Below are positions 28,513 through 50,093 of a DNA stretch of 64,000 bases, piece after piece (position 1 is the stretch's first letter; each line of letters opens with the position of its first letter). The translations under genes were made by a program, and so were the position numbers. Where the stretch lies: the NCBI RefSeq assembly GCF_002355595.1, contig NZ_AP017422.1, forward strand, positions 558,001 to 622,000, read 5' to 3'. Under the pieces are notes generated by a model. It was given only the letters and a program-made list of their open reading frames with translations. It did no database searches and was not told the origin of the DNA. The stretch comes from Filimonas lacunae. Lineage in GTDB: Bacteria > Bacteroidota > Bacteroidia > Chitinophagales > Chitinophagaceae.

Positions 28513-28515
28513 TAT

Positions 28516-29367: not shown

Positions 29368-29378
29368 ACGAACGCGCC

Positions 29379-30167: not shown

Positions 30168-30207
30168 TAAAAATAATTCTCTATTACTTACTCTATAGCT
30201 TGTTACA

Positions 30208-31221
30208 ATGAAAGCGCTTGTTTGTACTACCCCGGGTAGTTTTGAATATAAGGAAATGGATATGCCTGTGCCGGAACCCGGCCATGTATTGCTGCGTATC
30301 AAACGTGTAGGTATTTGTGGTACCGATTTGCATGCGTTTGAAGGTACACAGCCTTATTTTGAATACCCGCGTATATTGGGGCACGAGCTGGCAGCAGATA
30401 TTGCTGATGTCAATGGTGCTGCCGGTTTGGTAGCAGGCGATAAGGTTACCTTAATCCCTTACTTTAACTGCGGTCATTGCATTGCCTGCCGCAGAGGCAA
30501 GCCCAACTGCTGCACCAGTATAAAGGTATGCGGTGTGCATGTAGATGGGGGCATGCGTGAATACCTGAATGTGCCGGCAGCTTCTTTAATACAGGGTGGT
30601 GGTTTGTCGTACGATGAACTGGCACTGGTAGAACCTTTAGCGATAGGCGCACATGGTGTAAGAAGGGCAGGGGTTGAACCTGGTGAATTTGTGCTGGTAA
30701 TAGGTGCAGGTCCAATAGGGCTGGGTATTGCAGAGTTTGCACGTATAGCCGGGGCTCATGTAATAGTAATGGATATTAACGAACAACGTTTACAGTTTTG
30801 TAAAGACAAGCTGGGTATACAACACGTGGTGCAGGCCAATGCACCGGATGTTACTGCACAGTTACAACAAATAACACATGGCGATATGCCTACCGTGGTA
30901 ATAGATGCCACTGGTAGCTTAAAGGCCATCAACAATGCTTTTCAATATATGGCACACGGTGCCAGGTATGTGCTGGTAGGTTTGCAAAAAGGGGAGATCA
31001 GTTTTAGCCATCCTGAATTTCACAAACGCGAAGCCACTTTAATGAGCAGCCGCAATGCCACCCGTGCCGATTTTAACCACGTGATTACCAGTATGAAAAA
31101 TGGCCTGGTAAATCCTGCAACCTATATTACTCATAGAGTTACGTTTTCACAAACCGCTTCTGAATTTAAAAACTGGATGAATCCCGCCAACGGGGTTATC
31201 AAAGCTATGGTGGAATTTTAA
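30208..31221 (+). CDS. Zinc-dependent medium-chain alcohol dehydrogenase
   Basis: A 337-residue MDR-family enzyme. Catalytic zinc ligands are Cys37 (GICGTDLH) and His59/Glu60 (LGHELA); the structural-zinc cysteines are at 88, 91, 94 and about 101-102 (NCGHCIACRRGKPNCC). The Rossmann turn GAGPIGLG follows near 168. It belongs to the threonine/sorbitol-dehydrogenase-like group that oxidises secondary alcohols of sugars or sugar acids. It is the last gene of the operon, 40 bp after the L-fucose dehydrogenase-like gene. Its specific step is unclear: it may duplicate the 4-dehydrogenase step, oxidise the first sugar, or process L-lactaldehyde or L-galactonate-like side products. Confidence 0.85.
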   Translation: MKALVCTTPGSFEYKEMDMPVPEPGHVLLRIKRVGICGTDLHAFEGTQPYFEYPRILGHELAADIADVNGAAGLVAGDKVTLIPYFNCGHCIACRRGKPNCCTSIKVCGVHVDGGMREYLNVPAASLIQGGGLSYDELALVEPLAIGAHGVRRAGVEPGEFVLVIGAGPIGLGIAEFARIAGAHVIVMDINEQRLQFCKDKLGIQHVVQANAPDVTAQLQQITHGDMPTVVIDATGSLKAINNAFQYMAHGARYVLVGLQKGEISFSHPEFHKREATLMSSRNATRADFNHVITSMKNGLVNPATYITHRVTFSQTASEFKNWMNPANGVIKAMVEF

Positions 31222-31639: not shown

Positions 31640-33859
31640 ATGAACAGATTCCTTAAACGCTTGCTATTTCTGTCTGCATTGCTGTGCCTGATGGTGAACT
31701 GTCGAAAAAAGACATGGGACGATTTTTACGAACGTCCCGACTCACTGGAATCCCCTATTTACCAGGTGTTGCAGTCAAAAGGTAATTTTAATCATATGCT
31801 TTCCTGCATTGATAAAGCAGGATATAAAAGCACATTAAGTTCGGCGGGGTACTGGACTTTGTTTGCGCCAACAGATGAAGCCTTCCAAACTTATTTTACC
31901 ACCAGTGGCATTTCCGGTGTGGATAAAATGGATTCTGCAACAGCACGCCAGATAGTGCGTTACTGTTTGATATACAATTCTTTTAATCAAAGTAACCTGG
32001 ATGATTACCAGGCGCCTACCGGCTGGCAGGCAGATATTGCTTTTCGTCGCAGAACGGCTTACTACGATTTGTTTGATACCGTAAATGTAGCTGGCAACAG
32101 AATGGTAACTATTGCTGCCAATAGAAATGGTTATTATCTGTCATCAGATAATAACAATAAGTATATCACTTATTTCACTACTCCTTATTTCACTTATGCT
32201 GGTTTAACAGCGAAAGACTATAATTATTTCTATCCCAATACCACCTTTACAGGCCTGAATGTAATGGACGCCACTATTACGGGGGCAGATATTGCCGCAG
32301 AAAATGGAACTATACATATAGTGGATAAGGTGCTGATTACACAGCCGAGTATTGATAAATACCTGGCTGCCAAAACAGAGTACAGTGTATTCAGAAACCT
32401 GATGGAACGTTTCCTGGTAAACTATACGGTGAATGCCGATGCTACCGACAGGTATAATGTATTGTATGGCAGTGCTGATAAAGTATATGCAAAGTTGTTT
32501 AGTGGCAGTCTCGCCTTTTCGCCCAACAACGAAAACTATCTGAAACAACAGGATAATGATGGCCAGGCCAACTGCTGGACGCTTTTTGCGCCTAAGAATG
32601 AACCGCTGGTTGATTATTTAAAAAGCGTGATACTGGAACATTACAATAATGATACAGCCAACCTGCGTTTGTTGCCTACACAAATCATCACCGATTTTGT
32701 AAACGCGCATATGTTTCAAACACCGGTATGGCCTACTAAGTTTTCCGGAGCATCCAGCTTCCTGAACGAAGATGCCCGCTTTGATGCTTCTGCTGATATT
32801 ATTGACAAGAAAATTTTAAGTAACGGATTTTTTTACGGAACCAGCAAGGTGCAAAACTCCGATCTTTTTTCAACGGTGTATGCACGTCCTTACCTCGATC
32901 CTAAATATACTTTAATGACGAGGTTGCTGAACGAAGAGCTGAAATCACTAATCACGAATAGAAACATGCGTTACACCGTGTTTATGATGAGCGACAAGGT
33001 ATTGAACGAGCTGGGTTTTGACTATAGCACACAAACCAGCAGCTGGGTATGTAATAACCTGGCATCACTGGGTTATTCCGATCCTAAAGGTGCTTTACTG
33101 CGCATACTCAACATGAGCATAGTGCCTAAAGCAAGAGAAGAATTAACAAGTGTTGCCGGCAGCGGTATAGCAGAAGGATATGGCGGGGAAATGATACGCT
33201 ATAACAACGGGCAGGTATTTGCCGCAGGTAACATTGATAGCAGCCGCTTTGTGAATGTGGTAGGCTCTAAAGTAATGACCAATGGTACTGTGTTTTATAC
33301 CGATGGCCTGCTTTATTTCAGTACCAAACCTGTAGGCAAGCGGATAGCGGACCTGGCAACGGATGCGAGTTCACCTTATTATAATTTTTATCAGTATTTA
33401 CAAAACTCTACACTGTTTACACCTGCCACCTATGCTATCAGTGGTGTTGCGTTAGGCTTTATAGGTAGCTTTTTAATTCCTGACAACGCGGCTATTGTGG
33501 CAGCGGTGAATGCTGGCTTACTTCCCGGAACAGGAACAGCGCCTAACAAAGTGCCCAATTTTGCGCCAACAGATGCTACTGAAAAAGACATGGTTGCCAA
33601 GTTTATACAGTATCACATTATTAAGAAAGCGGTAATAGCGAACGGTACCAATAATGCAGAAACAGGCGAATCGTTATACAGATCATTACTTACAGATAAG
33701 GTTGGTTATGTTTCTATACAGGATCCGGGAGGAGATGCCAACCTGTATTTCAAGGATGATAATGGCCGCAGTGCCGCTATTAACCCAGCTTACAGCTATA
33801 TCCTGGCCGACAGGATGGTGATCCATTCCTTATCAAACTATCTACAATATTCTAATTGA
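31640..33859 (+). CDS. Large fasciclin (FAS1) domain lipoprotein
   Basis: A 739-residue surface or periplasmic lipoprotein (signal peptide then Cys21 in LMVNC). It holds about four FAS1 repeats. The H1-type motif is visible as YWTLFAPTDEAF (71-82), CWTLFAPKNEPL (312-323) and the degenerate YTVFMMSDKVL (about 445-455). H2-like segments are NGTIHIVDKVL (222-232), NGFFYGTSKVQ and NGTVFYTDGLLYF, with a last one ending MVIHSLSNYL. FAS1 domains mediate adhesion or carbohydrate binding in other proteins, but no function is established for these SusCD-linked versions. The gene starts the array and ends 12 bp before the second SusC gene. By position it may be a surface glycan-binding partner comparable to SusE/SusF. 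Confidence 0.85.
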   Translation: MNRFLKRLLFLSALLCLMVNCRKKTWDDFYERPDSLESPIYQVLQSKGNFNHMLSCIDKAGYKSTLSSAGYWTLFAPTDEAFQTYFTTSGISGVDKMDSATARQIVRYCLIYNSFNQSNLDDYQAPTGWQADIAFRRRTAYYDLFDTVNVAGNRMVTIAANRNGYYLSSDNNNKYITYFTTPYFTYAGLTAKDYNYFYPNTTFTGLNVMDATITGADIAAENGTIHIVDKVLITQPSIDKYLAAKTEYSVFRNLMERFLVNYTVNADATDRYNVLYGSADKVYAKLFSGSLAFSPNNENYLKQQDNDGQANCWTLFAPKNEPLVDYLKSVILEHYNNDTANLRLLPTQIITDFVNAHMFQTPVWPTKFSGASSFLNEDARFDASADIIDKKILSNGFFYGTSKVQNSDLFSTVYARPYLDPKYTLMTRLLNEELKSLITNRNMRYTVFMMSDKVLNELGFDYSTQTSSWVCNNLASLGYSDPKGALLRILNMSIVPKAREELTSVAGSGIAEGYGGEMIRYNNGQVFAAGNIDSSRFVNVVGSKVMTNGTVFYTDGLLYFSTKPVGKRIADLATDASSPYYNFYQYLQNSTLFTPATYAISGVALGFIGSFLIPDNAAIVAAVNAGLLPGTGTAPNKVPNFAPTDATEKDMVAKFIQYHIIKKAVIANGTNNAETGESLYRSLLTDKVGYVSIQDPGGDANLYFKDDNGRSAAINPAYSYILADRMVIHSLSNYLQYSN

Positions 33860-33871
33860 TAATACAGGTAA

Positions 33872-36800
33872 ATGATATATATGTTGAAAAGAATTGTTCC
33901 TGTTATCTATACACTGCTGCTACTGTGCTGCTTTATGCCTGTGCAACGGATATATGCGCAGAATGCGGCCGAGCCCATAACCCTGGTACGTGGAAAGGTA
34001 ATTAATGCAAAAGATAAAACGCCTATTGATGGCGCACTGGTGGCCGAAATTGATAAAGACGACCGGATTATTAAAGGCGTAACTACCGATTTGGAAGGTA
34101 ACTATGCTTTAAAAGTATCTAACCCTAAAAACAGGATCTCGGTAGCATTCATTGGCTACAAATCGGAGGTTTCGTCAATAGGCGGTAAGGCGGTACACAA
34201 CTTCCAGTTAACGCATTCCGGTAAAGACATGGATGAGGTAATTGTGGTAGCGGATAAAAAGAATAACAATGGTATGATGTCGATATCCGACAAATACCGT
34301 ACTACAGCTGCGGCATCTATCAGCGCCAAAGAAATGGAAGAGATGCAGGCCAGCTCTATTGATCAGGCTTTGCAGGGAAGGTTACCAGGTGTGGACATTA
34401 CAGCAGCTTCCGGTGACCCTGGTGCGGCTATGTCTATTAAAATACGTGGTACGGCTTCTATTAACTCTAACGATAACCCGTTGATTGTAGTAGATGGTAT
34501 GCCTTACGAAACATCAGTGCCTTCTGACTTTAACTTTGGTACGGCTGATGAACAAGGCTACGCGTCGTTACTGAATATTGCACCTTCGGATATTAAAGAT
34601 ATTACCGTGCTGAAAGATGCGGCCGCTACTGCGGTATGGGGTTCGCAGGCAGCCAGCGGGGTGTTAATCATCAATACCAAGCGTGGTGCAATGGGCAGTC
34701 CTTCTCTTACTTATACCATGAAGGCGTCCCTCACTTTTGCGCCAAAGGCTATTCCCATGTTAAATGGCGATCAGTATTCTACCCTGATGCCCGAAATGGT
34801 GATGAACCGTAACGGATCACCGTTGAACACGCAAACACAAAAAGAATTTTCTTACGATCCTACCGATCCTTACTGGTATTATAATTACAGCAATAACACG
34901 AACTGGGTAGAAGCTATTACCCGCATGGGCTATGTACAGGATCATAACCTGTCTATGTCAGGTGGTGGACAAAAAGCAAAGTATTATGCTTCGGTAGGTT
35001 ACTATGATTATAAAGGTATTACCATTGGAACGGGCTTAACCCGGATGAATGCGCGTATTAACCTCGATTATAACGTATCTGACCGCATCCGCTTCCGTTC
35101 CGATTTATCTTATACCCATAGCAATACGGCACGTAACTATGTAAATAACACAGATGGCTCTGATGGTATCCGTAACATCGCTTACCTGAAAATGCCCAAC
35201 ATGTCTATTTACGAGTATGATAAATACGGCAACCTTACGCCTAACTATTTATCGCCTGTAGCTAATACGCAAGGCTATTATCCAGGCACCTACAACCCGT
35301 TGGCGATGGCAGAAACGGCTATTAACAAAATTATAGGTGAACGTATAGTGCCCCACTTTAATCTGCAATACGACATCAAGCCTAAAAGGCTGATGCTGGT
35401 GTCAGATGTGCAGTTTGATATTAATAATACCAAAAACAATACGTTTTTACCACAGGAAGCAACCGGACGCCCTTGGATAGAAACTACGGTAAACCGCGCA
35501 TACGATGGGGATGGCGATGCATTTAGCGTGCAAACCAAAACCTCGTTAAGCTATACACCGGAGCTTTCAGAAGATCATTCCGCCTCGTTCTTTACTTCTT
35601 TAATGACGAGTGATTATAAATATGTATCGCACCAGTCGCAAACAGCCAATATCGCTTCTTCTGTAACGCAGGATCCTTCTGTGCCGGGCCGTACTTCCGG
35701 AACAGGTCTGGCTATTGGCTCCAGCCAAACACAAACACGTACAGTAGGCTTGTTGTTTAGCGGTCAGTACGATTATAAAAAGCGTTATATCATCAATGGT
35801 AGTATCAGGGGCGATGGTAACTCCCGTTTTGGTCCTAACCACCGCTACGGTTTGTTCCCGGCAGTGTCTACCCGTTGGAGGGCAGCTGACGAACCGTTTC
35901 TGGCAAAAGCACATGCTAAATGGATGGATGACTTTAGTGTGCGTGCAAGCTACGGCCATAGCGGACGGGCGCCTAAATATGATTATACTTTTTACAATAC
36001 CTATAGCTCTTATAACTTTACCTACCTGGGGCAATCGGCTGTGTTCCCTTCTGCCATGCGCCTGAACGATCTGCGTTGGGAAGTGAATAAAGGCTTGAAC
36101 CTTGGCTTTAACCTGTCGATGTTTCAGCGCAGAATAATGGTTGATCTGGATTTTTACCGCAACCGTATTTCTGACATGTTCTACAGCGATTTACAAATAC
36201 CTACTTATTCCGGGTTTAATACCGTGGATATGAACGTAGGTACGATGGATAACCAGGGATGGGAGTTAGGTTTAACGGCAACAGTGATCAGGAAAAAGGA
36301 TATTACCCTGGACCTGAATTTCAACATATCCCACAACGATAACGTCATCCGCGAAATTTCAGAATTCTACCCTAAAGAAAGCGGTAGTGTTACTGCCAAC
36401 GGTTCTTATAAATCGATATTACAGGTAGGTAACCCGTTTGGTTCTTTCTATGGTTATCGCTACAAAGGTGTGTATAAAGACAAAGCTTCTACCATTGCAA
36501 GAGACAAAGGTGGAAAGCCGATTGTGGGTCCTAATGGCCAAACGGTATACATGCGCTTTAACTATCCTTCAACGGATTATGTGTTCCAGCCGGGCGATGC
36601 TATGTATGAAGATGTTAACCACGATGGTACTATTAACTATATGGATGTGGTGTATCTGGGTAATGGTAACCCTAAGTTCAGTGGCGGTTTTGGTGCAACG
36701 CTTACATTAAAGCGCAACCTCAAAATAACGGCCTTCTTTAACTACCGTATGGGTGCTGACGTAATTAACAGCACTAAAATGACCACCACCAACATGTATG

Positions 36801-37171
36801 GCTACAGCAACCAAAGTACTGCTACCTTAAGAAGGTGGAGGAAAGAAGGGGATGTTACCGATATGCCACGTGCTTTATACGCTTCCGGCTACAACTGGCT
36901 GGGTAGCGACCGGTATGTGGAAGATGCGTCTTTTGTGCGTTTACGCACAGTAACTGCCAGGTATACACTGCCACAGGATATAGTAAGTAAGCTGCATCTG
37001 AAAGCGTTAAGCGCTTACATCACGGCAGAAAACCTGCTCACTTTCACCAGATACACAGGGCAAGATCCTGAGGTAACGCTGAAAGGCAGTGATCCTTTCC
37101 GTGTGGCTACCGATTACAGTATGACGCCGCCACCCATGATTTTTACATTTGGTTTAACCACTACATTCTAA
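33872..37171 (+). CDS. SusC-like TonB-dependent transporter (second pair)
   Basis: A 1,099-residue receptor. The signal peptide ends near RIYAQ, followed by a carboxypeptidase-regulatory-like domain (LVRGKVINAKDKTPIDGALV), the plug (LIVVDGMPYETSVPSDF; DAAATAVWGSQAASGVLIIN) and the barrel, ending FTFGLTTTF. The cargo is unknown, but the array lies inside the pectin region. An alternative ATG nine bases later (33881) would also keep the signal peptide. Its stop codon directly abuts the start codon of the susD-like gene. Confidence 0.94.
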   Translation: MIYMLKRIVPVIYTLLLLCCFMPVQRIYAQNAAEPITLVRGKVINAKDKTPIDGALVAEIDKDDRIIKGVTTDLEGNYALKVSNPKNRISVAFIGYKSEVSSIGGKAVHNFQLTHSGKDMDEVIVVADKKNNNGMMSISDKYRTTAAASISAKEMEEMQASSIDQALQGRLPGVDITAASGDPGAAMSIKIRGTASINSNDNPLIVVDGMPYETSVPSDFNFGTADEQGYASLLNIAPSDIKDITVLKDAAATAVWGSQAASGVLIINTKRGAMGSPSLTYTMKASLTFAPKAIPMLNGDQYSTLMPEMVMNRNGSPLNTQTQKEFSYDPTDPYWYYNYSNNTNWVEAITRMGYVQDHNLSMSGGGQKAKYYASVGYYDYKGITIGTGLTRMNARINLDYNVSDRIRFRSDLSYTHSNTARNYVNNTDGSDGIRNIAYLKMPNMSIYEYDKYGNLTPNYLSPVANTQGYYPGTYNPLAMAETAINKIIGERIVPHFNLQYDIKPKRLMLVSDVQFDINNTKNNTFLPQEATGRPWIETTVNRAYDGDGDAFSVQTKTSLSYTPELSEDHSASFFTSLMTSDYKYVSHQSQTANIASSVTQDPSVPGRTSGTGLAIGSSQTQTRTVGLLFSGQYDYKKRYIINGSIRGDGNSRFGPNHRYGLFPAVSTRWRAADEPFLAKAHAKWMDDFSVRASYGHSGRAPKYDYTFYNTYSSYNFTYLGQSAVFPSAMRLNDLRWEVNKGLNLGFNLSMFQRRIMVDLDFYRNRISDMFYSDLQIPTYSGFNTVDMNVGTMDNQGWELGLTATVIRKKDITLDLNFNISHNDNVIREISEFYPKESGSVTANGSYKSILQVGNPFGSFYGYRYKGVYKDKASTIARDKGGKPIVGPNGQTVYMRFNYPSTDYVFQPGDAMYEDVNHDGTINYMDVVYLGNGNPKFSGGFGATLTLKRNLKITAFFNYRMGADVINSTKMTTTNMYGYSNQSTATLRRWRKEGDVTDMPRALYASGYNWLGSDRYVEDASFVRLRTVTARYTLPQDIVSKLHLKALSAYITAENLLTFTRYTGQDPEVTLKGSDPFRVATDYSMTPPPMIFTFGLTTTF

Positions 37172-38674
37172 ATGGTAAATAAGAAGGAAATGAATTTGAA
37201 ATATATATATAGAAGTTTACTGGTGCTGTTGTTTACTGCTGCTTTGGGTGGCTGTAACAAATGGCTGGAGTTAAAGCCGGTAGATGGTATTGTGGGAGAG
37301 AACTACTGGAAAACAAAAGAGCAGTTATCGGCAGCCGTAACAGGTATTTATGCCTCTATGATAGGCTTACCCGATGGAGTTTCTGATAAATTACTGTCAG
37401 AGTATCTTTTTATGTGGGGTGAGTTAAGGGCCGATATGGTTATTCCCACAGGTACTGCCAGTAACGACGATAACGACATTTATAATGTAAACCTGCTGCC
37501 TACCAGCACCACGGTAAAATGGGCCAGCGTATACCGCACTATTAACTATTGCAATACGGTAATAGAGCTGGGGCCTGGTGTGCTGGAGCAAGATCCTACG
37601 CTTACCCAGGATCAGCTGAATGCGAACCTTTCAGAAGCCTATGCCATCAGAGCGCTGATGTATTTTTACCTGGCGCGCAGCTTTGGCGATGTGCCTTTGC
37701 AGCTGAAAGCGGTTACCAGCGATGATAATGTGGAGCAACTGGCCAAAAGCAAACAATCTGAGATACTGGACCAGGTAGTAGCCGATCTTACCAAAGCCGA
37801 ACCTATGGCAGTAACTACTTATGGCACTAAAGCGTATGATAAAGGCCGTGTTACTAAGTACACGATCAATGCCATACAGGCCGATGTGTATTTGTGGATG
37901 GAGAAATACACCGAATCGGTAACTGCCTGTGATAAGATCATTAATGCAGGACAGTTTGGTTTATTGTCATCAGGAAGCATGTATTACCTGTTTGCAGGCG
38001 GAGGTAATTCCAATGAAGCCATTTTTGAGTTTCAATATGATGCGCAGGCTCAAAACCCTTTCTATAATCTCTTTAGCAATACTACCCGCCGCTACCAGGT
38101 AGCCCCACGGGTAATAGATGAAATATACACCGTAGATTATGTAAATGAAGATAGTGTAGACGTAAGGGGGTACTATGCGGTACAATCCAATAACAACGGC
38201 ATCAGAAAATATGCGTGGGACGCTACTTCTGCTGCCTCGTTCAACCACTGGATTATCTATCGCTATGCCGATGTGCTGCTGATGAAAGCAGAAGCATTAA
38301 ACCAGCTGGATAAAGGACAGGATGCACTGGATATTGTATATCAGATTAGAAGACGCGCGCATGCACTGGAGCAAACAGATCTAAGCCCGGCTCCGGATGA
38401 TAAGGATGGCGTGGCTGATTTTATACTGGAAGAGCGTGCCCGGGAGTTTTCATTTGAAGGAAAACGGTGGTATGATTTACTGCGCAATGCTAAAAGAGAT
38501 AATTACAGGCGTTTGCAGGCGGTGCTGTTAACCATGGTGATTAATACGGTATCTCCCGACAGGCAGCAGTCGGCCATCAATAAGTATAAAGACTTTAACA
38601 GCCATTATTTCCCGATATATTACTACGAGCTGCAAACCGATAAAAAACTTGTACAAAACCCATTCTATCAATAA
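37172..38674 (+). CDS. SusD/RagB-family lipoprotein (second pair)
   Basis: A 500-residue lipoprotein with lipobox LGGC followed by NKWLELKPVDG, a classical SusD start. The signature LSEAYAIRALMYFYLARSFG (20 residues) and the C-terminal RYADVLLMKAEALNQLDKG and EERAREFSFEGKRWYDLLRN are all present. It is the surface partner of the preceding SusC. The first ATG directly follows the SusC stop; an in-frame ATG at 37190 (MNLKYIYRSL) gives a better-shaped signal peptide, but the AAGGAA just before it is very close. Either start gives the same mature lipoprotein. Confidence 0.94.
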   Translation: MVNKKEMNLKYIYRSLLVLLFTAALGGCNKWLELKPVDGIVGENYWKTKEQLSAAVTGIYASMIGLPDGVSDKLLSEYLFMWGELRADMVIPTGTASNDDNDIYNVNLLPTSTTVKWASVYRTINYCNTVIELGPGVLEQDPTLTQDQLNANLSEAYAIRALMYFYLARSFGDVPLQLKAVTSDDNVEQLAKSKQSEILDQVVADLTKAEPMAVTTYGTKAYDKGRVTKYTINAIQADVYLWMEKYTESVTACDKIINAGQFGLLSSGSMYYLFAGGGNSNEAIFEFQYDAQAQNPFYNLFSNTTRRYQVAPRVIDEIYTVDYVNEDSVDVRGYYAVQSNNNGIRKYAWDATSAASFNHWIIYRYADVLLMKAEALNQLDKGQDALDIVYQIRRRAHALEQTDLSPAPDDKDGVADFILEERAREFSFEGKRWYDLLRNAKRDNYRRLQAVLLTMVINTVSPDRQQSAINKYKDFNSHYFPIYYYELQTDKKLVQNPFYQ

Positions 38675-38689
38675 CACTAAAACTTGCGT

Positions 38690-40387
38690 ATGAAAGCGAT
38701 TGCCAATATCATTAAAGTAGCCTTACTGCTGGTAGCAGTAATCGGCTGGTTTTCCTGCAAGAAGATTAATATAGTAACCACCACTACAGAAGATGTAAAC
38801 CTGGTGGGATATATGGAAAGATATCCGGACACTTATTCCAACTTTTTGAAAGTATTGGATAAGGCCCAAACCACTTCTTACTTAAATGCTTATGGTGCCT
38901 ATACCTTATTTGCACCTAACAACGCTGCAGTAGATGCCTATATGAAAACACTGGGCAAAACCTCTGCAAGTGATTTAACAGAAGAAGAAGCAAAGAAGCT
39001 GGTGAAATACCACCTGCTGGAAGATACCATTCCTTCTACATCGTTCACCGATGGTAAACTGCCGGTACCTACTATGTATGGCGAATACCTGGTAATGGGT
39101 GTGGTAAATACTGATGGTGTTTCTAAGTATGTAGTAAACCGTACTTCGGTGGTGCTTACGCCAGATACCCGCGTGGCGAATGGTATATTGCACACTGTTG
39201 ATCATATGCTGGTACCCAGCACTAAATCGCTGGCACAACTGCTGGAAGAAAACAGCGATTACAGCATATTTACACAAGCCCTGAAAGCTACCGGTTACTA
39301 CGATACTTTAAGCTCGTTGAAGTATATCAATGATACCACACCGCGCTGGCTTTCGGTAATGGCGCAGAAGAATGCTGTTTTTCAGGCTGCTGGTATCAGC
39401 AGTTTTGATGCCTTGAAAGCAAAGTACTCCAACACGGGCAATCCATTGCTGGCTTCCGATAGCCTGCATTTGTATATGGCTTATCACATTCTGGATGGTT
39501 TAAAATATGTAGCCGACCTGGTTTCTTCTCCCTCTCACAATACGCTGGCTCCACAGGAGGTATTGCTTATTACCCTGAGAGGCGATACTGTTCGTATTAA
39601 CGAAGAAACCATGGCTGGCGTTTTTGAAAAAGGAATTGATGTAAACCGTACCACCAGTGATGTGTCGGCCACCAATGGTGTGTTGAACGATCTGGCAGGT
39701 AATATTTATATTAAAGTGCGCTATCCCACACCGGTTTATTGGGATCTGGCAGATCAGCCAGAGATCAGGAAATTAACTTCTGTATTCCGTAAAACAGGTG
39801 CCAGTCAGGATTTTAACGTGGGTGATCTGGCAGATGTAACCTGGGATGAAGCCACTATCAAATACGTATGTTCTGCCTCTGATGGCAAAAACTGTTACTA
39901 TTATAACGACCTGTTCAGTATTCCATCTTTAAGAACCAGCTCAGCAAGTAAAACCATTAACTGGATACAATTTAAATCGCCTATCATTATTAAGGGCAAG
40001 TATAAAGTCTGGATTTGCTGGAGAAGTGGTGGTGGTACCGCCACAAAGCCAGGCGGGGGCTACCTTACCCAAACTTATATCGATGGTGTGCTGATGCCAC
40101 GACTGGTAACCTTTGGCGATTACCGTTATGGTCAGAATCTTACAGATGATGAAATTCATGCGCAAGGCTGGAAACGTTATTCTGCTACCGCTGCTTTCAA
40201 TAACAACGTTATGTGTAGCAAGCTGATTGGTACTATTGACATTACCAACACAGGAAGGCATATAGTAAAATTTGTGCCAACAGGTGATGCGGCCGGTGCG
40301 GTTACTATTGACATGATCCATTTTATACCAGAGAATATGAACCAATACTCGCCCACTTTTGCGATAGATGGCACAATGGTATACTAA
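38690..40387 (+). CDS. Fasciclin-domain lipoprotein with C-terminal beta-sandwich
   Basis: A 565-residue lipoprotein (lipobox GWFSC). It has two FAS1 domains. The first carries AYTLFAPNNAAVDAYM and VANGILHTVDHML, and the second a divergent H1 and NGVLNDLAGNIYI. A C-terminal segment of about 200 residues is rich in beta-strand patterns (KYKVWICWRSGGG, TNTGRHIVKFVPTGDAAG) and ends near DMIHFIPENM, a layout seen in galactose-binding-like carbohydrate-binding modules. The ATG at 38690 is used; a TTG two codons earlier is a less likely start. It follows SusD by 15 bp, in the position of SusE/SusF in starch loci. Confidence 0.82.
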   Translation: MKAIANIIKVALLLVAVIGWFSCKKINIVTTTTEDVNLVGYMERYPDTYSNFLKVLDKAQTTSYLNAYGAYTLFAPNNAAVDAYMKTLGKTSASDLTEEEAKKLVKYHLLEDTIPSTSFTDGKLPVPTMYGEYLVMGVVNTDGVSKYVVNRTSVVLTPDTRVANGILHTVDHMLVPSTKSLAQLLEENSDYSIFTQALKATGYYDTLSSLKYINDTTPRWLSVMAQKNAVFQAAGISSFDALKAKYSNTGNPLLASDSLHLYMAYHILDGLKYVADLVSSPSHNTLAPQEVLLITLRGDTVRINEETMAGVFEKGIDVNRTTSDVSATNGVLNDLAGNIYIKVRYPTPVYWDLADQPEIRKLTSVFRKTGASQDFNVGDLADVTWDEATIKYVCSASDGKNCYYYNDLFSIPSLRTSSASKTINWIQFKSPIIIKGKYKVWICWRSGGGTATKPGGGYLTQTYIDGVLMPRLVTFGDYRYGQNLTDDEIHAQGWKRYSATAAFNNNVMCSKLIGTIDITNTGRHIVKFVPTGDAAGAVTIDMIHFIPENMNQYSPTFAIDGTMVY

Positions 40388-40413
40388 TTCAAATGATGAT
40401 ATAACAGAATAAA

Positions 40414-41856
40414 ATGTTGAGGAACATAAAAATAAGTTTTGCTGCCGTATTGCTGCTGGCTATGGGATGTACGCGTAAATGGGAAGACCATGATGCCAAG
40501 GCAGTATATGTAGATAATAACCTTTTTCAGCAGGTAACGGCCAATGCAGAACTAAGTACGTTTGCGGGCTATTTAAAGCAAACAGGATATGCCGATACCC
40601 TAAGCCTTTCTAAAAACTTTACCGTATGGGCACCTACCAATAATGCTTTAAAAAACCTGGATACAGCCATTGTAAACAATGCTGCCAATTTAAAGCAGTT
40701 TGTAGCGCACCATATAGCTACGCAAAGCTGGTTTATTGCCAGCGTGCGCGATAGCGCTAAGCGTGTTGCGTTGCTGGATGGTAAATATGCCTGGTTTAGC
40801 CCGGATGCGTTTGAGAATGCTACAATAACCCTGTTCGACAGGGTAGCAGCTAACGGAGTGTTGCATGCTATTACAGCCAGTGCAGCGCCTGTAGGCAACT
40901 GCTGGAATTACATTGACTCGTTAAGCAGGCAAGGTAACATAATGGCCGCCTATCTGTTTACCAAAACCTTTAAAGTACGTGATTTAACCAACGCAGTGCA
41001 GGTGGGGGTAAATCCGGAAACAGGCGAAGCCATTTATAAAGAAGGTACTGATTCGGTTATCCTTAACCGTTTTACCAATAGCGTATATGACGTAAATAAA
41101 GAAGAGAAAGAATATACGGTGTTTGTGCTGGCTAACACACCCTTTGGCACAGAAACCGACCGGCTTGCGCCTTTTAACACAGCTACTACAGCCGACAGTA
41201 CAAAAGATTTGTCGCAGTGGTGCGTGGTAAAAGACCTGGCGGTAGAAGGTGCTTATGCACCAGATCAACTGCCGGATAGTATCACTGCGAAAACAGGGGT
41301 ACGTGTGGCGGTGAACAAATCGGCCATAGTAGCTACCTATCATACGAGCAATGGATATGTATATGTAATGAACGAAATGGCGGTAAGCCTTACCAGCAAA
41401 ATTCCTGAACAGATTATACAGGGCGAATCTTACCTGGGTGTTGGTGGTGGTGCGGCCAGTATGTTTATCCGTCAGCAATACGACTCGCTGAATGGCGGCA
41501 AGTTTACCGACCTGTTTGCTTATAAACCCAATGTTAACAAGTTTAACGTTATTTACCGGGCGCCTGAAATTTATACCACTACGTATAAAGTATACTGGCG
41601 TGCAGTAAACAGCACCACCTTGCTGGCCAACCCTTATAACCAGAAGCTGGCTATGGACTCCGCCAACTCTGCCACGTTTGCTTACACCGCTATTACACCT
41701 AATAATTATAACGAGGTGTACCTGGGCGAATATAAGCGAACACAGTATAGAAACGGTATGGTGTATATGTTTCTGGTAAGTGCTGATGTAACTATTACTT
41801 CTACCACGTTAAATGCCTTGTTGCTGGATTATATAAGGCTGGTACCTGTTCGATAG
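40414..41856 (+). CDS. Fasciclin-domain lipoprotein, shorter form
   Basis: A 480-residue lipoprotein (lipobox AMGC, Cys19). FAS1 features are NFTVWAPTNNALKNLD and ANGVLHAITASAAP in the first domain, with a second, diverged domain (EYTVFVLANTPF and NGYVYVMNEMAV). The C-terminal 140 residues again look like a beta-sandwich and end LLLDYIRLVPVR, matching the D-x-I-x-x-[IV]-P end of the previous protein. This suggests that both carry a related C-terminal binding module. It is 26 bp after the previous gene and 32 bp before the third SusC. Confidence 0.82.
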   Translation: MLRNIKISFAAVLLLAMGCTRKWEDHDAKAVYVDNNLFQQVTANAELSTFAGYLKQTGYADTLSLSKNFTVWAPTNNALKNLDTAIVNNAANLKQFVAHHIATQSWFIASVRDSAKRVALLDGKYAWFSPDAFENATITLFDRVAANGVLHAITASAAPVGNCWNYIDSLSRQGNIMAAYLFTKTFKVRDLTNAVQVGVNPETGEAIYKEGTDSVILNRFTNSVYDVNKEEKEYTVFVLANTPFGTETDRLAPFNTATTADSTKDLSQWCVVKDLAVEGAYAPDQLPDSITAKTGVRVAVNKSAIVATYHTSNGYVYVMNEMAVSLTSKIPEQIIQGESYLGVGGGAASMFIRQQYDSLNGGKFTDLFAYKPNVNKFNVIYRAPEIYTTTYKVYWRAVNSTTLLANPYNQKLAMDSANSATFAYTAITPNNYNEVYLGEYKRTQYRNGMVYMFLVSADVTITSTTLNALLLDYIRLVPVR

Positions 41857-41888
41857 GAAATTATTAAAGTATTGTATTAATTATAAAC

Positions 41889-44800
41889 ATGCAGTTACAT
41901 AAACATATAGTAAAACGTATATTCCTCTTCCTCGCTATAGCTGGATGTTGCATGCAAAAAGGAGCGGCACAGCAGCCAACAGTAAAGGTGGTAAAAGACA
42001 GTGTGGTGGTAAGCCGTGCATCAGGCACCGTGTCCGATGCAGCTACCGGTAAGCCACTGGCGGGTGTGAATATATCTGTACCAGGCTTTTCAGCCGCTAT
42101 TACCGACGAAAAAGGAAAGTTCAGTATTAAAATTCCTGCTAAAGATGTTACCCTGTTTATCAGCAGCGATGGCTTTCAAAAAAGGCAGGTGCCTTTAAGG
42201 GGCGATTCGGTGGTAAATGTGCGCATCTACGATGAATCGTTCGATTCTTATTATGCTACTTCTGCATTACCTGCCGGTAGCCGTTCCCGTAACGAAGTGT
42301 CTGCACCTGCGGCTTACGTAAGTCCCGGTGGAGCCTGGGCACGTAATCAGGAAACGCCTGATAACCTGCTGCAGGGTATTGCCAGCGGTTTAAGAACTGT
42401 GCGCAAATCCGGCACACCCGGCATGGGGGCTTCTATGTTCCTGCGTGGCATTTCCTCCCTGTATACTACCAATATGCCTTTGATAGTGGTGGATGGAATT
42501 ATTTTTGAAACCAGGGATTTTGGAGGTTCATTGATTTCAGGCTACGAGCACAACGCATTGCAATGGCTGGATGTGCAGGATATTGATGATATCTCTATTA
42601 TTAAAGATGGCACTTCTACCTATGGTACCAAGGGCGCCAATGGTGTTATTTATATTACTACTTCAAGGGCTACCGAAAAAGCAACACGTATTGATGTAGG
42701 TTTATATACCGGCGTAAACTTTGCGCCTAAGAACTTACCGGTAATGAATGCGCAGCAGTACAGGCCTTACCTGGCAGATGTGCTGCAATCGCAGGGACTG
42801 AGCCAGCAGGAAATTGCCAGCCAGCCTTACATGACAGATGATGTGAACAGCACGCAATATGCCCGTTACCATTATAATACCGATTGGCAAAAACAGGTAT
42901 TCGATAACAGTGCATCCAATAACGCGTTTTTGAAAATCAGTGGTGGTGATAACATTGCTTCTTATGGCCTGTCAATGAACTATGCCCGTAACGAAGGTGT
43001 GATTAAAGAAACGGATTTCTCCCGTTTGGGCACCCGTTTCAATGCCGATTTAAATTTAACCAAACGTCTTACTGCCAATAGTAACCTGTCTTTTACCTAT
43101 ACGCAACAAAAGCTGCGTCATACAGGAATCTCTCCTAAACTCAATCCTATATTCAATGCCCTGGTAAAATCGCCCTTTATGGCGGTAAACGACATCAGCG
43201 ATAAAGGTGCTGTATCGCCCAACCTGGCCGATGTAGATACTTTAGGATATGGTAACCCGGCAAGCCTGGTGCAAAAGATCATTGCCAAAAACAGTAGCTA
43301 CCGTTTTGTGGGATCGTTACAGTTCAATTACCTGGTAAACAACCGCTTTACCATCAGCACCCGTTTTGGTGTTACCAATGATAAAATAAGGGAAAATACA
43401 TTTGTACCCAGCAAAGGCATTGTACATGATACTTTGCAATCGGCTATTGCTTACAACCGCTCAGGTAGTAATGTAAAACGCCTGCTGGCTGTATTTAGCG
43501 ATACCTGGGTGCAGTATAAAGAAACTTTCAAAAGAAAGCATGTGATAAGTGCGCAGGCAGGTGTTCGTTATCAGCAACAGTCTTTTGAACAGGACTATGC
43601 GCTGGGTTATAACTCTGCCACCGATGAGCTGATTAACATTGGTTATGGTGCAGCTGCCTTACGGGAAGTAGGGGGCGATAAAGCCAGGAACAGGTGGCTG
43701 AATACGTATATCAATGGCGATTACGCTTATGATAACCGCTTTTTTGTAACAGCAGGCCTTACCGCAGATGGATCGTCCCGTTTTGGACATGATATTCCCG
43801 GTGCATTTACTTTCAATGGCAACAACTATGCGGTGTTACCGTATGTGGCCGCGGCCTGGCAAATTTCGTCAGAGCAGTTTATGCGCTCACTGCCTATTGT
43901 TAGCCTGTTAAAAGTACGTGCGGCTTATAGCCTGTCAGGTAATGACGATATAGGCGATTACACTGCCCGTCAGTATTATGTATCACAAAACCTGTATGGT
44001 ATGCAGGGGCTGGTAAGAGGTAATGTTGCTAACCCGCATTTACAATGGGAAAGCCATAAAAAATTAAACCTGGGTGTGGATGTAGGTGTGTGGGACGATC
44101 GCATTCGTGTGAGTGCAGATGTATTCCATAACACAACGCGCAATATGCTGGTGATAGAAGATGCCAATGTAGCTGTTGGGGTAGATAAGCTGTACAGCAA
44201 CAGTGGCAGCTTGCAAAACAATGGTGTGGAGTTAAACATAGATACACGTATCATTAACCAGCGCGATTTAAAGTGGGATCTGGGCGTGGGCATTGCTGCT
44301 TATCGCAACAAGATCACCAGCCTGCCTAAATCACGTATCATCACTTCTTTTGCCGGTGGCGAAATTATCACTGCGCCAGGCCAGGCAGCTAACCTGTTCT
44401 ATGGTTATAAAACCAGAGGTGTATATGTTACCCAGGCGGCGGCAGTGGCAGAAGGGTATACTACCAACCGTCCGGATGGCTCACAGGGCTCTTTTGGCGG
44501 CGGCGATATGATGTTCACCGATGTAAATGGAGATAAAGCTATTGATGAGAAGGATAAGCAGGTAATTGGTAATCCTAACCCTGACTACACCGGCAATATC
44601 AATACGGTACTTACCTGGAAACGCTTTTCACTGAATGCCCTGTTTACTTTCAGCAAAGGCAATGACGTATATAACTATACACGTGCCAAACTGGAATCCG
44701 GTGCCGATTACAGCAACCAGTTAGTAAGCATGTTGAACAGGTGGAAAACAGAAGGCCAGTTAACCAACATGCCTAAAGCCACTTACGGCGATCCTTTAGG

Positions 44801-45068
44801 CAACAGCCGTTTCTCTGACCGTTGGATAGAAGATGGTTCTTATTTCCGTTTAAGAACGATATCTCTAAGCTATAACCTGAAGTTGAAGCCCGGATTTTTA
44901 AGATATGTGACCGTATATGCAGCAGCCAACAATTTATTAACTATTACCAAATACCTGGGTTACGATCCTGAATTCAGCGTTACTAATTCACCGCTGGGAC
45001 AGGGTGTTGACATGGGATTGCAGCCGCAATTCAAATCAGCACAGGCAGGTGTAAAAATTGGTTTATAA
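41889..45068 (+). CDS. SusC-like TonB-dependent transporter (third pair)
   Basis: A 1,059-residue receptor. The signal region ends near KGAAQ, then a carboxypeptidase-regulatory-like domain (ASGTVSDAATGKPLAGVNIS). The plug has MPLIVVDGIIFETRDFGG and DGTSTYGTKGANGVIYITTS, the barrel follows, and the C-terminus is SAQAGVKIGL. The linker between the regulatory domain and plug (SALPAGSRSRNEVSAPAAYV) is longer and less regular than in the other two SusC proteins. It is paired with the next gene after 19 bp. Confidence 0.93.
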   Translation: MQLHKHIVKRIFLFLAIAGCCMQKGAAQQPTVKVVKDSVVVSRASGTVSDAATGKPLAGVNISVPGFSAAITDEKGKFSIKIPAKDVTLFISSDGFQKRQVPLRGDSVVNVRIYDESFDSYYATSALPAGSRSRNEVSAPAAYVSPGGAWARNQETPDNLLQGIASGLRTVRKSGTPGMGASMFLRGISSLYTTNMPLIVVDGIIFETRDFGGSLISGYEHNALQWLDVQDIDDISIIKDGTSTYGTKGANGVIYITTSRATEKATRIDVGLYTGVNFAPKNLPVMNAQQYRPYLADVLQSQGLSQQEIASQPYMTDDVNSTQYARYHYNTDWQKQVFDNSASNNAFLKISGGDNIASYGLSMNYARNEGVIKETDFSRLGTRFNADLNLTKRLTANSNLSFTYTQQKLRHTGISPKLNPIFNALVKSPFMAVNDISDKGAVSPNLADVDTLGYGNPASLVQKIIAKNSSYRFVGSLQFNYLVNNRFTISTRFGVTNDKIRENTFVPSKGIVHDTLQSAIAYNRSGSNVKRLLAVFSDTWVQYKETFKRKHVISAQAGVRYQQQSFEQDYALGYNSATDELINIGYGAAALREVGGDKARNRWLNTYINGDYAYDNRFFVTAGLTADGSSRFGHDIPGAFTFNGNNYAVLPYVAAAWQISSEQFMRSLPIVSLLKVRAAYSLSGNDDIGDYTARQYYVSQNLYGMQGLVRGNVANPHLQWESHKKLNLGVDVGVWDDRIRVSADVFHNTTRNMLVIEDANVAVGVDKLYSNSGSLQNNGVELNIDTRIINQRDLKWDLGVGIAAYRNKITSLPKSRIITSFAGGEIITAPGQAANLFYGYKTRGVYVTQAAAVAEGYTTNRPDGSQGSFGGGDMMFTDVNGDKAIDEKDKQVIGNPNPDYTGNINTVLTWKRFSLNALFTFSKGNDVYNYTRAKLESGADYSNQLVSMLNRWKTEGQLTNMPKATYGDPLGNSRFSDRWIEDGSYFRLRTISLSYNLKLKPGFLRYVTVYAAANNLLTITKYLGYDPEFSVTNSPLGQGVDMGLQPQFKSAQAGVKIGL

Positions 45069-45087
45069 ACAGGATGCGCTTTAATAT

Positions 45088-46872
45088 ATGAATATGAACA
45101 AACTAACGATAGATAGAATAAAGATATTAATGCTGCTGCCCGTGGTAGCCTTGCTGGCAGCTTCCTGTAAAAAAATGTTTGATGTAAAGCCGGAACAGGT
45201 GGTAGATCAAACCCAGATGTACAGGAACGTGAACGATGCCGATGCGGCTATATTGGGATTGTATGGTAAACTGATGAACCTGGCTAAACAGCATGTGGTG
45301 TTAAACGAACTGCGTGCCGATTTAATGGATGTTACTGATAACGCCAATGACGCGCTAAAGCAGGTAACCCTTAACAACGTAGCGTCAAATAACACCTATG
45401 CCGATCCGCGTGCTTACTACCAGGTGATACTGAACTGTAATGATGTGATCAAGAATTTTCAGATCATGGTAGCGAATAAAAAGTTTACCCGCGATGAATT
45501 CAACCAACGCTATGGCGATGTGGTAGCATTGCGTTCGTGGGTATACCTGCAGGCAGGTATACAATATGGTACCGTTCCTTATGTAACCAGTGCTTTGGAA
45601 ACCATTGATGACGTAAAAGATGAAAGTAAGTTTCCACGCCTGAGCCTGGATAAGCTTATTGATACGCTTATTAAAGTAACGGACTCTATTCCTTATAAAG
45701 ATGTGTATGTAACTGGTTCGAGCCTGGTAACTACCATTGATGGCTATAACACAGGTAAATTCTTTATTAATAAAAAATGCCTGTTGGGCGATTTATACCT
45801 GTGGCGTTCTGCTTTTACCAAGTCTGATATAGATGCAAGACTGGCTGCGGGTTATTACAAGCAGGTAATGGAAACCGGTGGTAACGGCGATTATGATACC
45901 TATCGCATCAAATGGTCGGAAGTAACCACCAATAATGATATTGCGGTAGGTTACTGGAACGATGGTCGTGTAAACCAGTATAGCGAGAATATGCTGGTGG
46001 ATGATAACGACTATGGCTGGAGATCTATTTTTGCCAGGGGACAGGATGCATTGTATAACACGGAATGGATTTGGATGTTGTATTTCAATGCCAGCTTTAG
46101 CCCTGAAAATCCTTTTATCGATCTGTTCTCCAACCGTGGTGGCAGCTACCTGGTAAAGCCTTCACAGGCTGCCATAGATGGCTGGGATGCACAGGTGCAA
46201 TCAGATAATAACTTTCCTTACGATGCCCGTAAAAGGCTAACGTATAAAACCCTGGATGGCCAGCCTGTAATTATGAAGTACCTGTATAATTATGTGGATG
46301 AAACCACCTACCTGCCTACTTCTTTACTCAACAAACCCGGCAAATGGTTTTTGTATCGTGCTGCCCAACTGCATTTGCATTATGCAGAAGCTGCTAACAG
46401 GGATGGCCGGCATAAAATTGCTTATGCGCTGGTGAATAACGGGCTTTCTTACAATTTTGACAACAGCCCTGGTGCAGGCACCAAGCGCGATGTTACCAAC
46501 ACGCAACAAACCTTCGATCCGGAAACTGCTTACCAGTTCGATGCCCGTTATGGCGATAACCCTACCTTCCGCGCACCCTGGCACAGAAACGTAGGAATCA
46601 GGGGCCGGGCGCATTTAAAAGCGTTGCCGGTGAATGGTGCTGATAGCACTACGCTTATTGAAAATATGATTGTAGACGAATCTGGCCTGGAGCTGGCATA
46701 TGAAGGCAGCCGTTGGGCCGATCTGTTGCGCATAGCTATACGTAGAAACGAGCCTGCTTTTGTGGCAGATAAAGTATATAATAAACTGGTGAAGGATGGT
46801 AATGGCAGTGCTGCTGCTACCCGTGCGCGTTTATTAGCCAAAGATTGGTTTTTGCCTTTCAAATGGGAATAA
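45088..46872 (+). CDS. SusD/RagB-family lipoprotein (third pair)
   Basis: A 594-residue lipoprotein (lipobox LAASC, then KKMFDVKPEQVV). SusD motifs include RYGDVVALRSWVYLQAGIQY and YRAAQLHLHYAEAANRDGRH, and the C-terminal ESGLELAYEGSRWADLLRIA. It is the last gene of the fasciclin-SusCD array; a terminator follows before the convergent lacI-family gene. Confidence 0.93.
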   Translation: MNMNKLTIDRIKILMLLPVVALLAASCKKMFDVKPEQVVDQTQMYRNVNDADAAILGLYGKLMNLAKQHVVLNELRADLMDVTDNANDALKQVTLNNVASNNTYADPRAYYQVILNCNDVIKNFQIMVANKKFTRDEFNQRYGDVVALRSWVYLQAGIQYGTVPYVTSALETIDDVKDESKFPRLSLDKLIDTLIKVTDSIPYKDVYVTGSSLVTTIDGYNTGKFFINKKCLLGDLYLWRSAFTKSDIDARLAAGYYKQVMETGGNGDYDTYRIKWSEVTTNNDIAVGYWNDGRVNQYSENMLVDDNDYGWRSIFARGQDALYNTEWIWMLYFNASFSPENPFIDLFSNRGGSYLVKPSQAAIDGWDAQVQSDNNFPYDARKRLTYKTLDGQPVIMKYLYNYVDETTYLPTSLLNKPGKWFLYRAAQLHLHYAEAANRDGRHKIAYALVNNGLSYNFDNSPGAGTKRDVTNTQQTFDPETAYQFDARYGDNPTFRAPWHRNVGIRGRAHLKALPVNGADSTTLIENMIVDESGLELAYEGSRWADLLRIAIRRNEPAFVADKVYNKLVKDGNGSAAATRARLLAKDWFLPFKWE

Positions 46873-46942: not shown

Positions 46943-46978
46943 AAAACCCTGCTTGTTTAAGTGGGGTTTATTTTTTTC
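46943..46978 (+). terminator. Intrinsic terminator of the fasciclin-SusCD array
   Basis: The stem AAACCC/GGGTTT with inner CTT/AAG pairs is followed by ATTTTTTTC on the plus strand. It lies 70 bp after the last SusD stop. The T-tract overlaps the last codons of the convergent lacI-family gene. Confidence 0.7.
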
Positions 46979-48002
46979 TTATAGAAGATTCGCGAATGAA
47001 TAATTCGGCAGGCAATACGGTATGCTCAAAGTCTTTTACCGGACGCTTCGCTTCTATTAACTGCAATAACATTTCAGTAGCCTGGCGGCCAATTTCAAAG
47101 GCCGGTTGCTTTACAATAGTTAAAGGTGGACTTAACAGTTCGGTGAGGTCTGAATTGCTAAAGCCTACCAGGGCAATATCATCTGGTACGGTAATGCCAT
47201 TTTTGTGCAGGTAGCGCAAACAGTTGGTGGTGAGTTTATCGGCGCTGGCAACTATGGCATCGGGTTTTTGCGGCTGGGCAAATAAATCGTCCAGCGCAGT
47301 TTGCACCTCCTGCTCCAGCATACCACCGTGGGTGCAATGTTTTACCAGGCGCTCGTCGTAGGCAATGCCCTTGTCGGCCAGTGCGCTTCTGTAGCCGCTT
47401 AAACGTTCCTGGGTAATGGTCATATAATCAGCCGCAGCCAGGTTGGCAATACGGCGGTAACCGTTTTCAATCAGGTGCGTGGTAGCTGCATAAGCGCCCG
47501 ACGCATTGTTGGTTGTTACTTTATGGGTGGCTATTTCGTGTACAATACGATCAAAAAATACAATCGGCAAGCCCTGGGCGTGCAGTTTTTTCAGGTGGTC
47601 GAAGTTTTGGGTTTCGGCCGAAACGGAAATCAGCAACCCGTCAATAGAGCGGGAAGCCATGTGGCTTACATCCAGCACCTCCCGTTCAAACGATTCGTGG
47701 CTTTGGGAGATGGTAACATTATAGCCCTGGTCGTAGGCAATGGATTCTATACCATTTATAATCTGCGAGAAAAAGCTGTTGGCAATTTCGCACACAATTA
47801 CGCCAATACTCCGGCTCCTCTTTTCCTTCAGGCTAAGAGCGATGGGGTTGGGTCTGTAGTTGATACTGGTGGCATACTCTTTTACCAGCTTTTTAGTGTC
47901 CTCACTAATCTCATAACTGTCACGTAATGCCCTTGACACGGTAGAAGTTGATAAACCCAGCGCTTTGGCAATATCCTTAATGGTAACCGCTTCAAATTTC
48001 AT
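46968..48002 (-). CDS. LacI-family transcriptional regulator of pectin/uronate use
   Basis: A 344-residue repressor. The N-terminal helix-turn-helix reads TIKDIAKALGLSTSTVSRAL (residues about 6-25), and the sugar-binding core follows with RSIGVIVCEIANSFFSQIIN and the C-terminal VGFSNSDLTELLSPPLTIV. An in-frame ATG at 48251 would add 83 residues of unlike, basic sequence in front of the DNA-binding helix and cover the operator-like site, so ATG 48002 is preferred. It is divergent from the GH28-uronate operon. The GCAAACGTTACCG site at 48133-48145 suggests self-control, and similar sites occur upstream of the first SusC. The ligand may be 2-keto-3-deoxygluconate or a galacturonate derivative (inference). 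Confidence 0.92.
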   Translation of the reverse strand: MKFEAVTIKDIAKALGLSTSTVSRALRDSYEISEDTKKLVKEYATSINYRPNPIALSLKEKRSRSIGVIVCEIANSFFSQIINGIESIAYDQGYNVTISQSHESFEREVLDVSHMASRSIDGLLISVSAETQNFDHLKKLHAQGLPIVFFDRIVHEIATHKVTTNNASGAYAATTHLIENGYRRIANLAAADYMTITQERLSGYRSALADKGIAYDERLVKHCTHGGMLEQEVQTALDDLFAQPQKPDAIVASADKLTTNCLRYLHKNGITVPDDIALVGFSNSDLTELLSPPLTIVKQPAFEIGRQATEMLLQLIEAKRPVKDFEHTVLPAELFIRESSIRKK

Positions 48003-48132
48003 ATCGAACAAACAGGTATAAAGAAGTTTAGTCAGGTCCTGAACACGGCTTAAAGATAAGGGAATTGGATGACTAGTTGTATTTGGTTGATTTTCAATGA
48101 ATAATATATCAAACCCCTTTCGGGATCGATTG

Positions 48133-48145
48133 CGGTAACGTTTGC
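48133..48145 (-). promoter_or_regulatory. Putative LacI-family operator in the lacI/GH28 divergent region
   Basis: On the minus strand GCAAACGTTACCG, differing by one base from the core of the repeated site at 17967 and 18111. It is 131 bp before the regulator's start and 221 bp before the GH28 start, within the 363-bp divergent intergenic region 48003-48365. It could control both directions. Confidence 0.58.
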
Positions 48146-48314
48146 ACAAATAAATTGATTTATAACTGGATATGTTCAGGAATATATGCCTACACTTGCC
48201 CTTTCTAAAGCGCTTGTCATGGAATATCTGAATGGTGCGGTGATGGGACAAACATTAAATACGTGTTCAAGGTTTACTGGTTTTAGAATAAAGTGGTTGT
48301 TATTGGAAAGCATG

Positions 48315-50009: not shown

Positions 50010-50093
50010 CAGGTTAAATAAGGTTACCGGATGGATAAACGGGGGGAGTGCGATTTGTGAAAGAAGGTGGACATTTGGAAATTGAAACGTATT

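Follow-up and report, generated by a model that had tools for sequence, protein, structure and literature searches.

Sus-like polysaccharide utilisation loci (PULs) are built from SusC, SusD, and SusE/SusF or other surface glycan-binding proteins, and loci for rhamnogalacturonan I (RG-I) are known in Bacteroides. Here we describe a seven-gene array from Filimonas lacunae, located in a stretch of 64,000 nucleotides (contig NZ_AP017422.1, positions 558,001 to 622,000 of the forward strand; this whole stretch is the window, in whose numbering its features are given), in which three lipoproteins with fasciclin (FAS1) domains, FASA, FASB and FASC, are interleaved with two SusC/SusD (SusCD) pairs. 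The array shares with Sus-like PULs its SusCD pairs, adjoining lipoproteins and degradative genes in the flanks, but its extra lipoproteins are FAS1 proteins, and two unlike SusCD pairs together with three FAS genes make up one set. With the pectin and rhamnogalacturonan PULs of Bacteroidota, its locus has in common the pectin-degrading genes and uronate catabolism. We moderately favour the reading that the array serves a pectin locus, most likely of RG-I type, as its machinery for capture and import at the outer membrane, with the FAS1 lipoproteins acting as surface glycan-binding proteins.

The tandem FAS1 folds of TGFBIp, periostin and fasciclin I are shared by the array's proteins, which differ in being bacterial lipoproteins and, in FASB, in being joined to a domain resembling a carbohydrate-binding module (CBM). 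A review of FAS1 includes a bacterial section (PMC6032426). In one section of PMC4891872 a FAS1 gene appears only in the legend (Fig. 6) of a cellulase/hemicellulase-type PUL of Gramella portivictoriae and relatives; the legend there of a pectin-like PUL of Gramella echinicola and Flavobacterium johnsoniae is without a FAS gene, unlike our array. Within the open full texts of PubMed Central (PMC), a scope that leaves aside subscription papers and preprints, our searches brought up no account of FAS1 genes as components of SusCD modules. As we read it, the array is a Sus-like uptake unit in which FAS1 proteins would replace glycan-binding proteins and two transporters belong to one stable set. 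FAS1 is usually read as adhesive, and a class of Bacteroidota FAS1 lipoproteins here gains a constant home and a testable role; the module is also well suited to the question of why two dissimilar SusCD transporters stay together.

Gene content of the array

The array occupies 31640-46872 (15 kb, plus strand) in the order FASA-SusC1-SusD1-FASB-FASC-SusC2-SusD2, with intergenic gaps of 12, 0, 15, 26, 32 and 19 bp (FASB counted from 38690). An earlier note, made from the letters of this DNA alone, had claimed this order on one strand, spacings of 0 to 32 bp and the identities of the genes as FAS1, SusC and SusD, and the reading frames and the Pfam and NCBIfam scans agree with it on each count.

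FASA (31640-33859) is a lipoprotein of 739 amino acids with four tandem FAS1 or FAS1-like domains (Pfam Fasciclin, E 2e-22); it gives four alignments to the FAS1 profile, of which that of the third repeat is weak. FASB (38690-40387) is a lipoprotein of 565 amino acids with two FAS1 domains (E 1e-24) and a predicted C-terminal beta-sandwich like those of CBM6 and CBM35; the listed start of its frame is a TTG at 38684, and the ATG at 38690, which gives this length, is likelier. In FASC (40414-41856; lipoprotein, 480 amino acids) one FAS1 domain is clear (E 7e-16), the middle is poorly resolved and the C-terminal domain is weakly FASB-like. The TonB-dependent transporters SusC1 (33872-37171, 1099 amino acids) and SusC2 (41889-45068, 1059 amino acids) match TIGR04056 (SusC/RagA) above its cut-off, with 726.6 and 623.1 bits, and each is followed by a lipoprotein of the SusD_RagB family, namely SusD1 (37172-38674, 500 amino acids, E 2e-33) and SusD2 (45088-46872, 594 amino acids, E 6e-9), so that both pairs have the make-up of SusC/SusD uptake systems. 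The Pfam cut-off was passed by Fasciclin (PF02469) in all three FAS proteins and by SusD_RagB in both SusDs. SusC1 and SusC2 are 26% identical and belong to distant lineages.

No relation of the FAS proteins to SusE/SusF was detected: Pfam at E 0.001 returned Fasciclin only, and NCBIfam nothing. The same two libraries place no enzyme family inside the seven genes. The absence of enzymes that the earlier note reported holds within the array and not for its flanks, where the start of a glycoside hydrolase (GH) gene of family GH28 lies 1.5 kb beyond it (48366) and a pectinesterase joined to a GDSL esterase ends 6.6 kb before it (25067). A terminator-like hairpin with a T-run lies behind the array (46944-46969, plus strand, by pattern match only), but the region has about as many sites of this kind as shuffled sequence does (16, against a mean of 15.8).

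Recurrence and inheritance of the seven-gene set

The arrangement of the array is more than chance, as judged from the copies in the same genome, from the kept gene order and from the joint occurrence of its genes. The F. lacunae genome is a single contig of 7.8 Mb, in which a Fasciclin search hit 29 places that, by our reading, resolve into 18 open frames; 12 of these frames belong to four full seven-gene sets, which are the one in the window, L002, L005, and L008 with L007 (L numbers denote individual loci). Gene by gene, the three other sets are 36-61% identical to that of the window. All seven genes are present in L005, where FASB has moved from fourth place to first. The start of the second copy is 53 kb beyond the first, an arrangement much like that of Filimonas zeae, whose two copies are 41 kb apart.

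To survey relatives, genome contigs were scanned with SusC1 and the neighbours of each match were called with profiles of the paralogues of the window genes, missing positions being those where the sequence ends. We read 80 loci, the best of 151 relatives, so that SusC1 loci without FAS genes could be among the other 71; the 80 comprise 79 distinct loci, two (L050 and L051) being identical in sequence. By their titles, the hosts are Chitinophagaceae, Pedobacter and other Sphingobacteriaceae, Flavobacterium and other Flavobacteriaceae, Fibrella/Fibrivirga, Pontibacter and a Prolixibacteraceae bin. The closest SusC1 among the named relatives is that of F. zeae (L014; 76% in the best segment). 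FASA lies directly upstream of SusC1 in 78/78 loci with a gene at that position (two end there), and SusD1 is next downstream in 76 of 77 (three end there); the mismatch, L069, has its SusC1 split into two frames. Farther along, among readable loci, come FASB (75/75), FASC (71/71), SusC2 (71/71) and SusD2 (70/70), with median intergenic gaps of 9-39 bp across the 80 loci.

A test independent of SusC1 gave the same picture. In a separate draw of 247 genomes of the phylum, FASB at E 1e-15 matched 47 genomes, and full-length matches (at least 695 bits) occurred at only nine places in six genomes, that of F. lacunae included; the next-best match reached 119 bits. The five others each carry the module in full (L094-L098; the FASA of L094 is cut by the end of the fetched stretch). 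Searches of the 247 genomes with FASC (1e-25), FASA (1e-25) and SusD2 (1e-60) found these six and no others, and copy numbers of full-length FASA, FASB, FASC and SusD2 were identical, at 4, 1, 1, 1, 1 and 1. Within the Chitinophagaceae, FASB is present in 34 of 195 genomes and in 25 of 101 genera. Absence of the FAS1 genes from equivalent SusCD loci in relatives is what the earlier note thought would tell against it; in the relatives examined these genes are constant beside both SusCD pairs, and no such absence was seen there.

The seven proteins also share much of their history. Over 62 complete modules their pairwise distances correlate at 0.82-0.95. Each tree has 32-40 well-supported splits, of which 1 to 11 disagree with those of another gene; FASB and SusD2 show the most disagreement. 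We conclude that the block has mostly been inherited whole, with some exchange or noise.

Several loci depart from the usual form. L164 and L165 are diverged seven-gene sets with low scores, and L099 (3817-16349) holds a six-gene variant, FAS-SusC-SusD-FAS-SusC-SusD, which has no FASC and is followed by two BNR-repeat proteins. Modules can be paired: two lie head-to-tail in L075, and L169 and L162 are on one Pararcticibacter contig with their FASB genes 29 kb apart. The identical 23 kb stretches L050 and L051 lie on a single contig of [Flexibacter] sp. ATCC 35208 with their modules oppositely oriented, which reflects either a recent duplication or an assembly artefact. The module of L015 is in a bin titled Williamsia sp., an actinobacterial name, and the bin is probably mislabelled or contaminated.

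Flanking genes

In the window, the array lies among carbohydrate-active enzymes, the setting of a PUL. Upstream on the plus strand are the pectinesterase with GDSL esterase (23424-25067) and, at 25189-31221, genes for deoxy-hexose catabolism of the L-fucose/L-rhamnose type: a FucP-type permease, a short-chain dehydrogenase/reductase (SDR), an FAA hydrolase, a fuconolactonase-like protein (below cut-off) and a Zn-dehydrogenase, with the frame at 29151 resembling an SDR by eye. Downstream, a LacI-family regulator (46968-48251, minus strand; its LacI domain begins at residue 90, and the true start is probably further in) is followed on the plus strand by the GH28 gene (48366-50009), a GH88/GH105 family protein (50067-52016) and, at 51980-56725, a mannitol-dehydrogenase-family protein (by inference a tagaturonate reductase), a galactarate/altronate dehydratase and UxaC. 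A KduI-family protein is also downstream. Left of 23424 the scan covered only a further SusC/SusD pair (18246-23302, recognised by script). No PL11 (polysaccharide lyase family 11), GH106 or rhamnose isomerase gene is present in the window's own flanks as read.

In relatives, flank genes were clustered and cluster representatives were named with Pfam and NCBIfam. The families found include GH88/105, GH28, GDSL esterase, GH106, rhamnose isomerase (RhaI), RhaD, RhaT, PL22, PL11, GH31, GH2, GH43 and GH115, among others. For a quantitative comparison we used 52 modules, made up of 48 relatives with a fetchable downstream side (only L051 of the identical pair) and the four from F. lacunae, and read up to 8 kb upstream and 10 kb downstream, on average 17.4 kb without the module, some upstream stretches being short. 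The 40 control SusD loci were hand-picked from the best-scoring SusD matches of 12 genomes; 11 of these, which are among the genomes that carry modules, are represented. The choice favoured long contigs and left out one match in a module flank. Control stretches were 20 kb (two were 14 and 19.9 kb), SusCD pair included.

Modules exceeded controls in GH105 (20 vs 1), GH28 (16 vs 0), GDSL (12 vs 0), GH106 (11 vs 0), RhaI (7 vs 0) and GH2 (12 vs 2), and RhaT, PL11, PL22 and GH115 were each found at six modules and no control. GH31 was not clearly enriched (9/52 against 2/40, p 0.07). Any of GH105, GH28, GDSL, GH106, RhaI, RhaT, PL22, PL11 or strictly called RhaD was present at 39 of the 52 modules and 1 of the 40 controls; the Fisher p of 1e-13 is a guide only, because the profiles derive from the module flanks themselves and related loci do not count as independent. 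A looser RhaD-type profile had given 43/52 against 3/40 and was dropped in favour of a threshold of at least 400 bits, since 12 of its 18 module-side matches and both of its control matches scored 55-198 bits. The link to pectin that the earlier note had drawn is thus strong, both in the flanks of the window and across modules.

The gene first behind SusD2 belongs to the PL11 cluster in L127, L128 and L130. In L125 (1277-2671) that place is taken by a 464-residue protein with relatives in six other flank loci, which is weakly like the oligogalacturonate lyase family PL22, below cut-off. A beta-helix protein overlaps the end of SusD2 in the second F. lacunae copy (L003, 2846-4093); by eye it resembles a PL1 lyase, Pfam calls it Beta_helix only, and members of its cluster also stand behind SusD2 in L116, L123, L155-L157 and L163.

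The FAS1 lipoproteins and their probable role

An AlphaFold model of FASB built from 60 sequences reached a predicted local distance difference test (pLDDT) score of 89.8 and a predicted template modelling (pTM) score of 0.79. Its best Foldseek matches are tandem FAS1 proteins (TGFBIp, E 1e-17; fasciclin I, E 3e-16; periostin). Weaker ones (E 8e-6 to 1.5e-4) include 7ehg (MiXBM, which its name marks as a binding module; TM 0.65-0.71 by target length) and the CBM35 structure 2w1w (E 1.4e-4). Because Foldseek gave no ranges, we placed the domains by secondary structure and Pfam, which put FAS1 at the N-terminus and assign the last 200 residues to the sandwich. On this basis the C-terminus of FASB is predicted to adopt a CBM6/CBM35-like beta-sandwich fold. 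The Pfam family DUF5108 matches the C-terminus of most relatives weakly (50 of the 60 aligned members at E up to 0.1). When four members were scanned one at a time, the match lay within residues 383-538 and was below cut-off; the FASB of the window is unmatched. A first model from four sequences was poor (pLDDT 52.1) and gave a match to 2w47 as well, the structure of a CBM35 with unsaturated galacturonic acid; matches were sought anew with the 60-sequence model, on which we rely. A viral structure library, pursued as a lead, returned giant-virus FAS1 proteins and mixed weak matches and led nowhere.

A lipid-type cysteine was recognised by script rule in 70, 64 and 68 of 70 FASA, FASB and FASC proteins, and by a stricter pattern in 68, 56 and 60. 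All three are thus lipoproteins encoded beside SusCD, as surface glycan-binding proteins are. SusD and other PUL lipoproteins are surface lipoproteins, and by analogy the FAS lipoproteins would be exposed too. It is very improbable, in our judgement, that they instead face the periplasm, there to act on oligosaccharides after import or to partner the barrels. The cysteine is uninformative as to side, and acidic residues follow it closely in FASA (65/70) and FASC (55/68) but in only 25 of 64 FASB; the SusDs, as surface lipoproteins, also score low by this acidic-residue rule (17/67 and 31/70), and for that reason it gives no argument for the periplasm. A CBM-like domain, moreover, suits the capture of a polymer.

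On the reading that we favour, FASA, FASB and FASC would stand in place of SusE/SusF-type surface glycan-binding proteins, FASA perhaps as a four-repeat rod and FASB as two FAS1 domains with a CBM-like head. At the cell surface they would retain the polymer or large oligosaccharides, handing pieces on to the two SusCD pairs; these pairs are of different lineage and probably take different fragments. Enzymes encoded in the flanks would cleave the chain both outside the cell and in the periplasm, leaving the rhamnose/fucose and uronate pathways to complete the breakdown. The earlier note, which proposed the FAS1 lipoproteins as surface glycan- or protein-binding partners of the two transporters, perhaps for a pectin fragment too complex for a single SusD, was right in outline and is partly supported; since the SusCs are of distant lineages, two substrates or sizes fit as well as one complex ligand. 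FASB would then be a sequence marker for pectin/rhamnogalacturonan uptake.

A number of observations weigh against this reading. Counted pectin genes are lacking in the flanks read of 13 of the 52 modules (L022, L043, L058, L065, L066, L067, L069, L082, L083, L090 and three of the four F. lacunae copies), and those three copies are flanked by a beta-helix protein, by GH43 and an arabinofuranosidase, and by GH95. The deoxy-hexose genes of the window resemble L-fucose more than L-rhamnose genes. Xylose genes adjoin the Flavobacterium modules and a sulfatase is near two Leeuwenhoekiella modules, so the substrate may vary. As for the proteins, the FASB matches in Foldseek include GH115 and other beta-sandwich proteins, delta-endotoxins among them; no Pfam CBM family is among the matches of 60 FASB and 60 FASC proteins; and the C-terminus of FASC aligns with that of FASB at P 0.005 only, too weak for us to claim a FASB-like domain there. 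The variety of enzymes near the F. lacunae paralogues, the xylose genes and the BNR-repeat proteins behind the distant six-gene variant would all suit a general uptake chassis whose ligand is set copy by copy, pectin being one use of several and its link inflated by shared ancestry. That explanation is a serious contender, albeit one we think less probable than a dedicated pectin system, as the link recurs in several host families and through different genes (PL11, PL22, GH28, GH105, GH106 and RhaI).

It is unlikely that the FAS1 lipoproteins are adhesins to the plant cell wall or to other cells, co-transcribed with the transporters and without a role in uptake. The top structural matches of FASB are indeed adhesion-type FAS1 proteins, and in a Bacteroidota symbiont a FAS1 gene with high transcription was interpreted as a sign of adhesion (PMC10199937). 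A pure adhesin, however, need not keep the set, and in the 247-genome draw the three FAS types were found only together and with SusD2. Fifteen other hand-picked Bacteroidota FAS1 loci (L099-L113) also speak against adhesion: L099 is the module variant described above, L109 has SusCD five genes away, and the rest show no SusCD in the stretch. These are weak-match loci, and the 14 besides L099 (L100-L113) contain no seven-gene set.

The FAS1 lipoproteins could be scaffolds that dock the two unlike SusCDs into one fixed surface complex, a two-channel utilisome catching and importing backbone and side-chain fragments of one rhamnogalacturonan side by side. Such a complex would explain why the seven-gene set stays together; we regard it as somewhat unlikely.

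FAS1 proteins occur with a receptor elsewhere in the F. lacunae genome as well, in a locus of a different kind at about 2.50 Mb (L010, 6017-19046). No SusD was found in this FAS1 cluster, which comprises a TonB-dependent receptor, a DUF4397 protein and one weakly like it, three FAS1 proteins and an OMP_b-brl_4 barrel.

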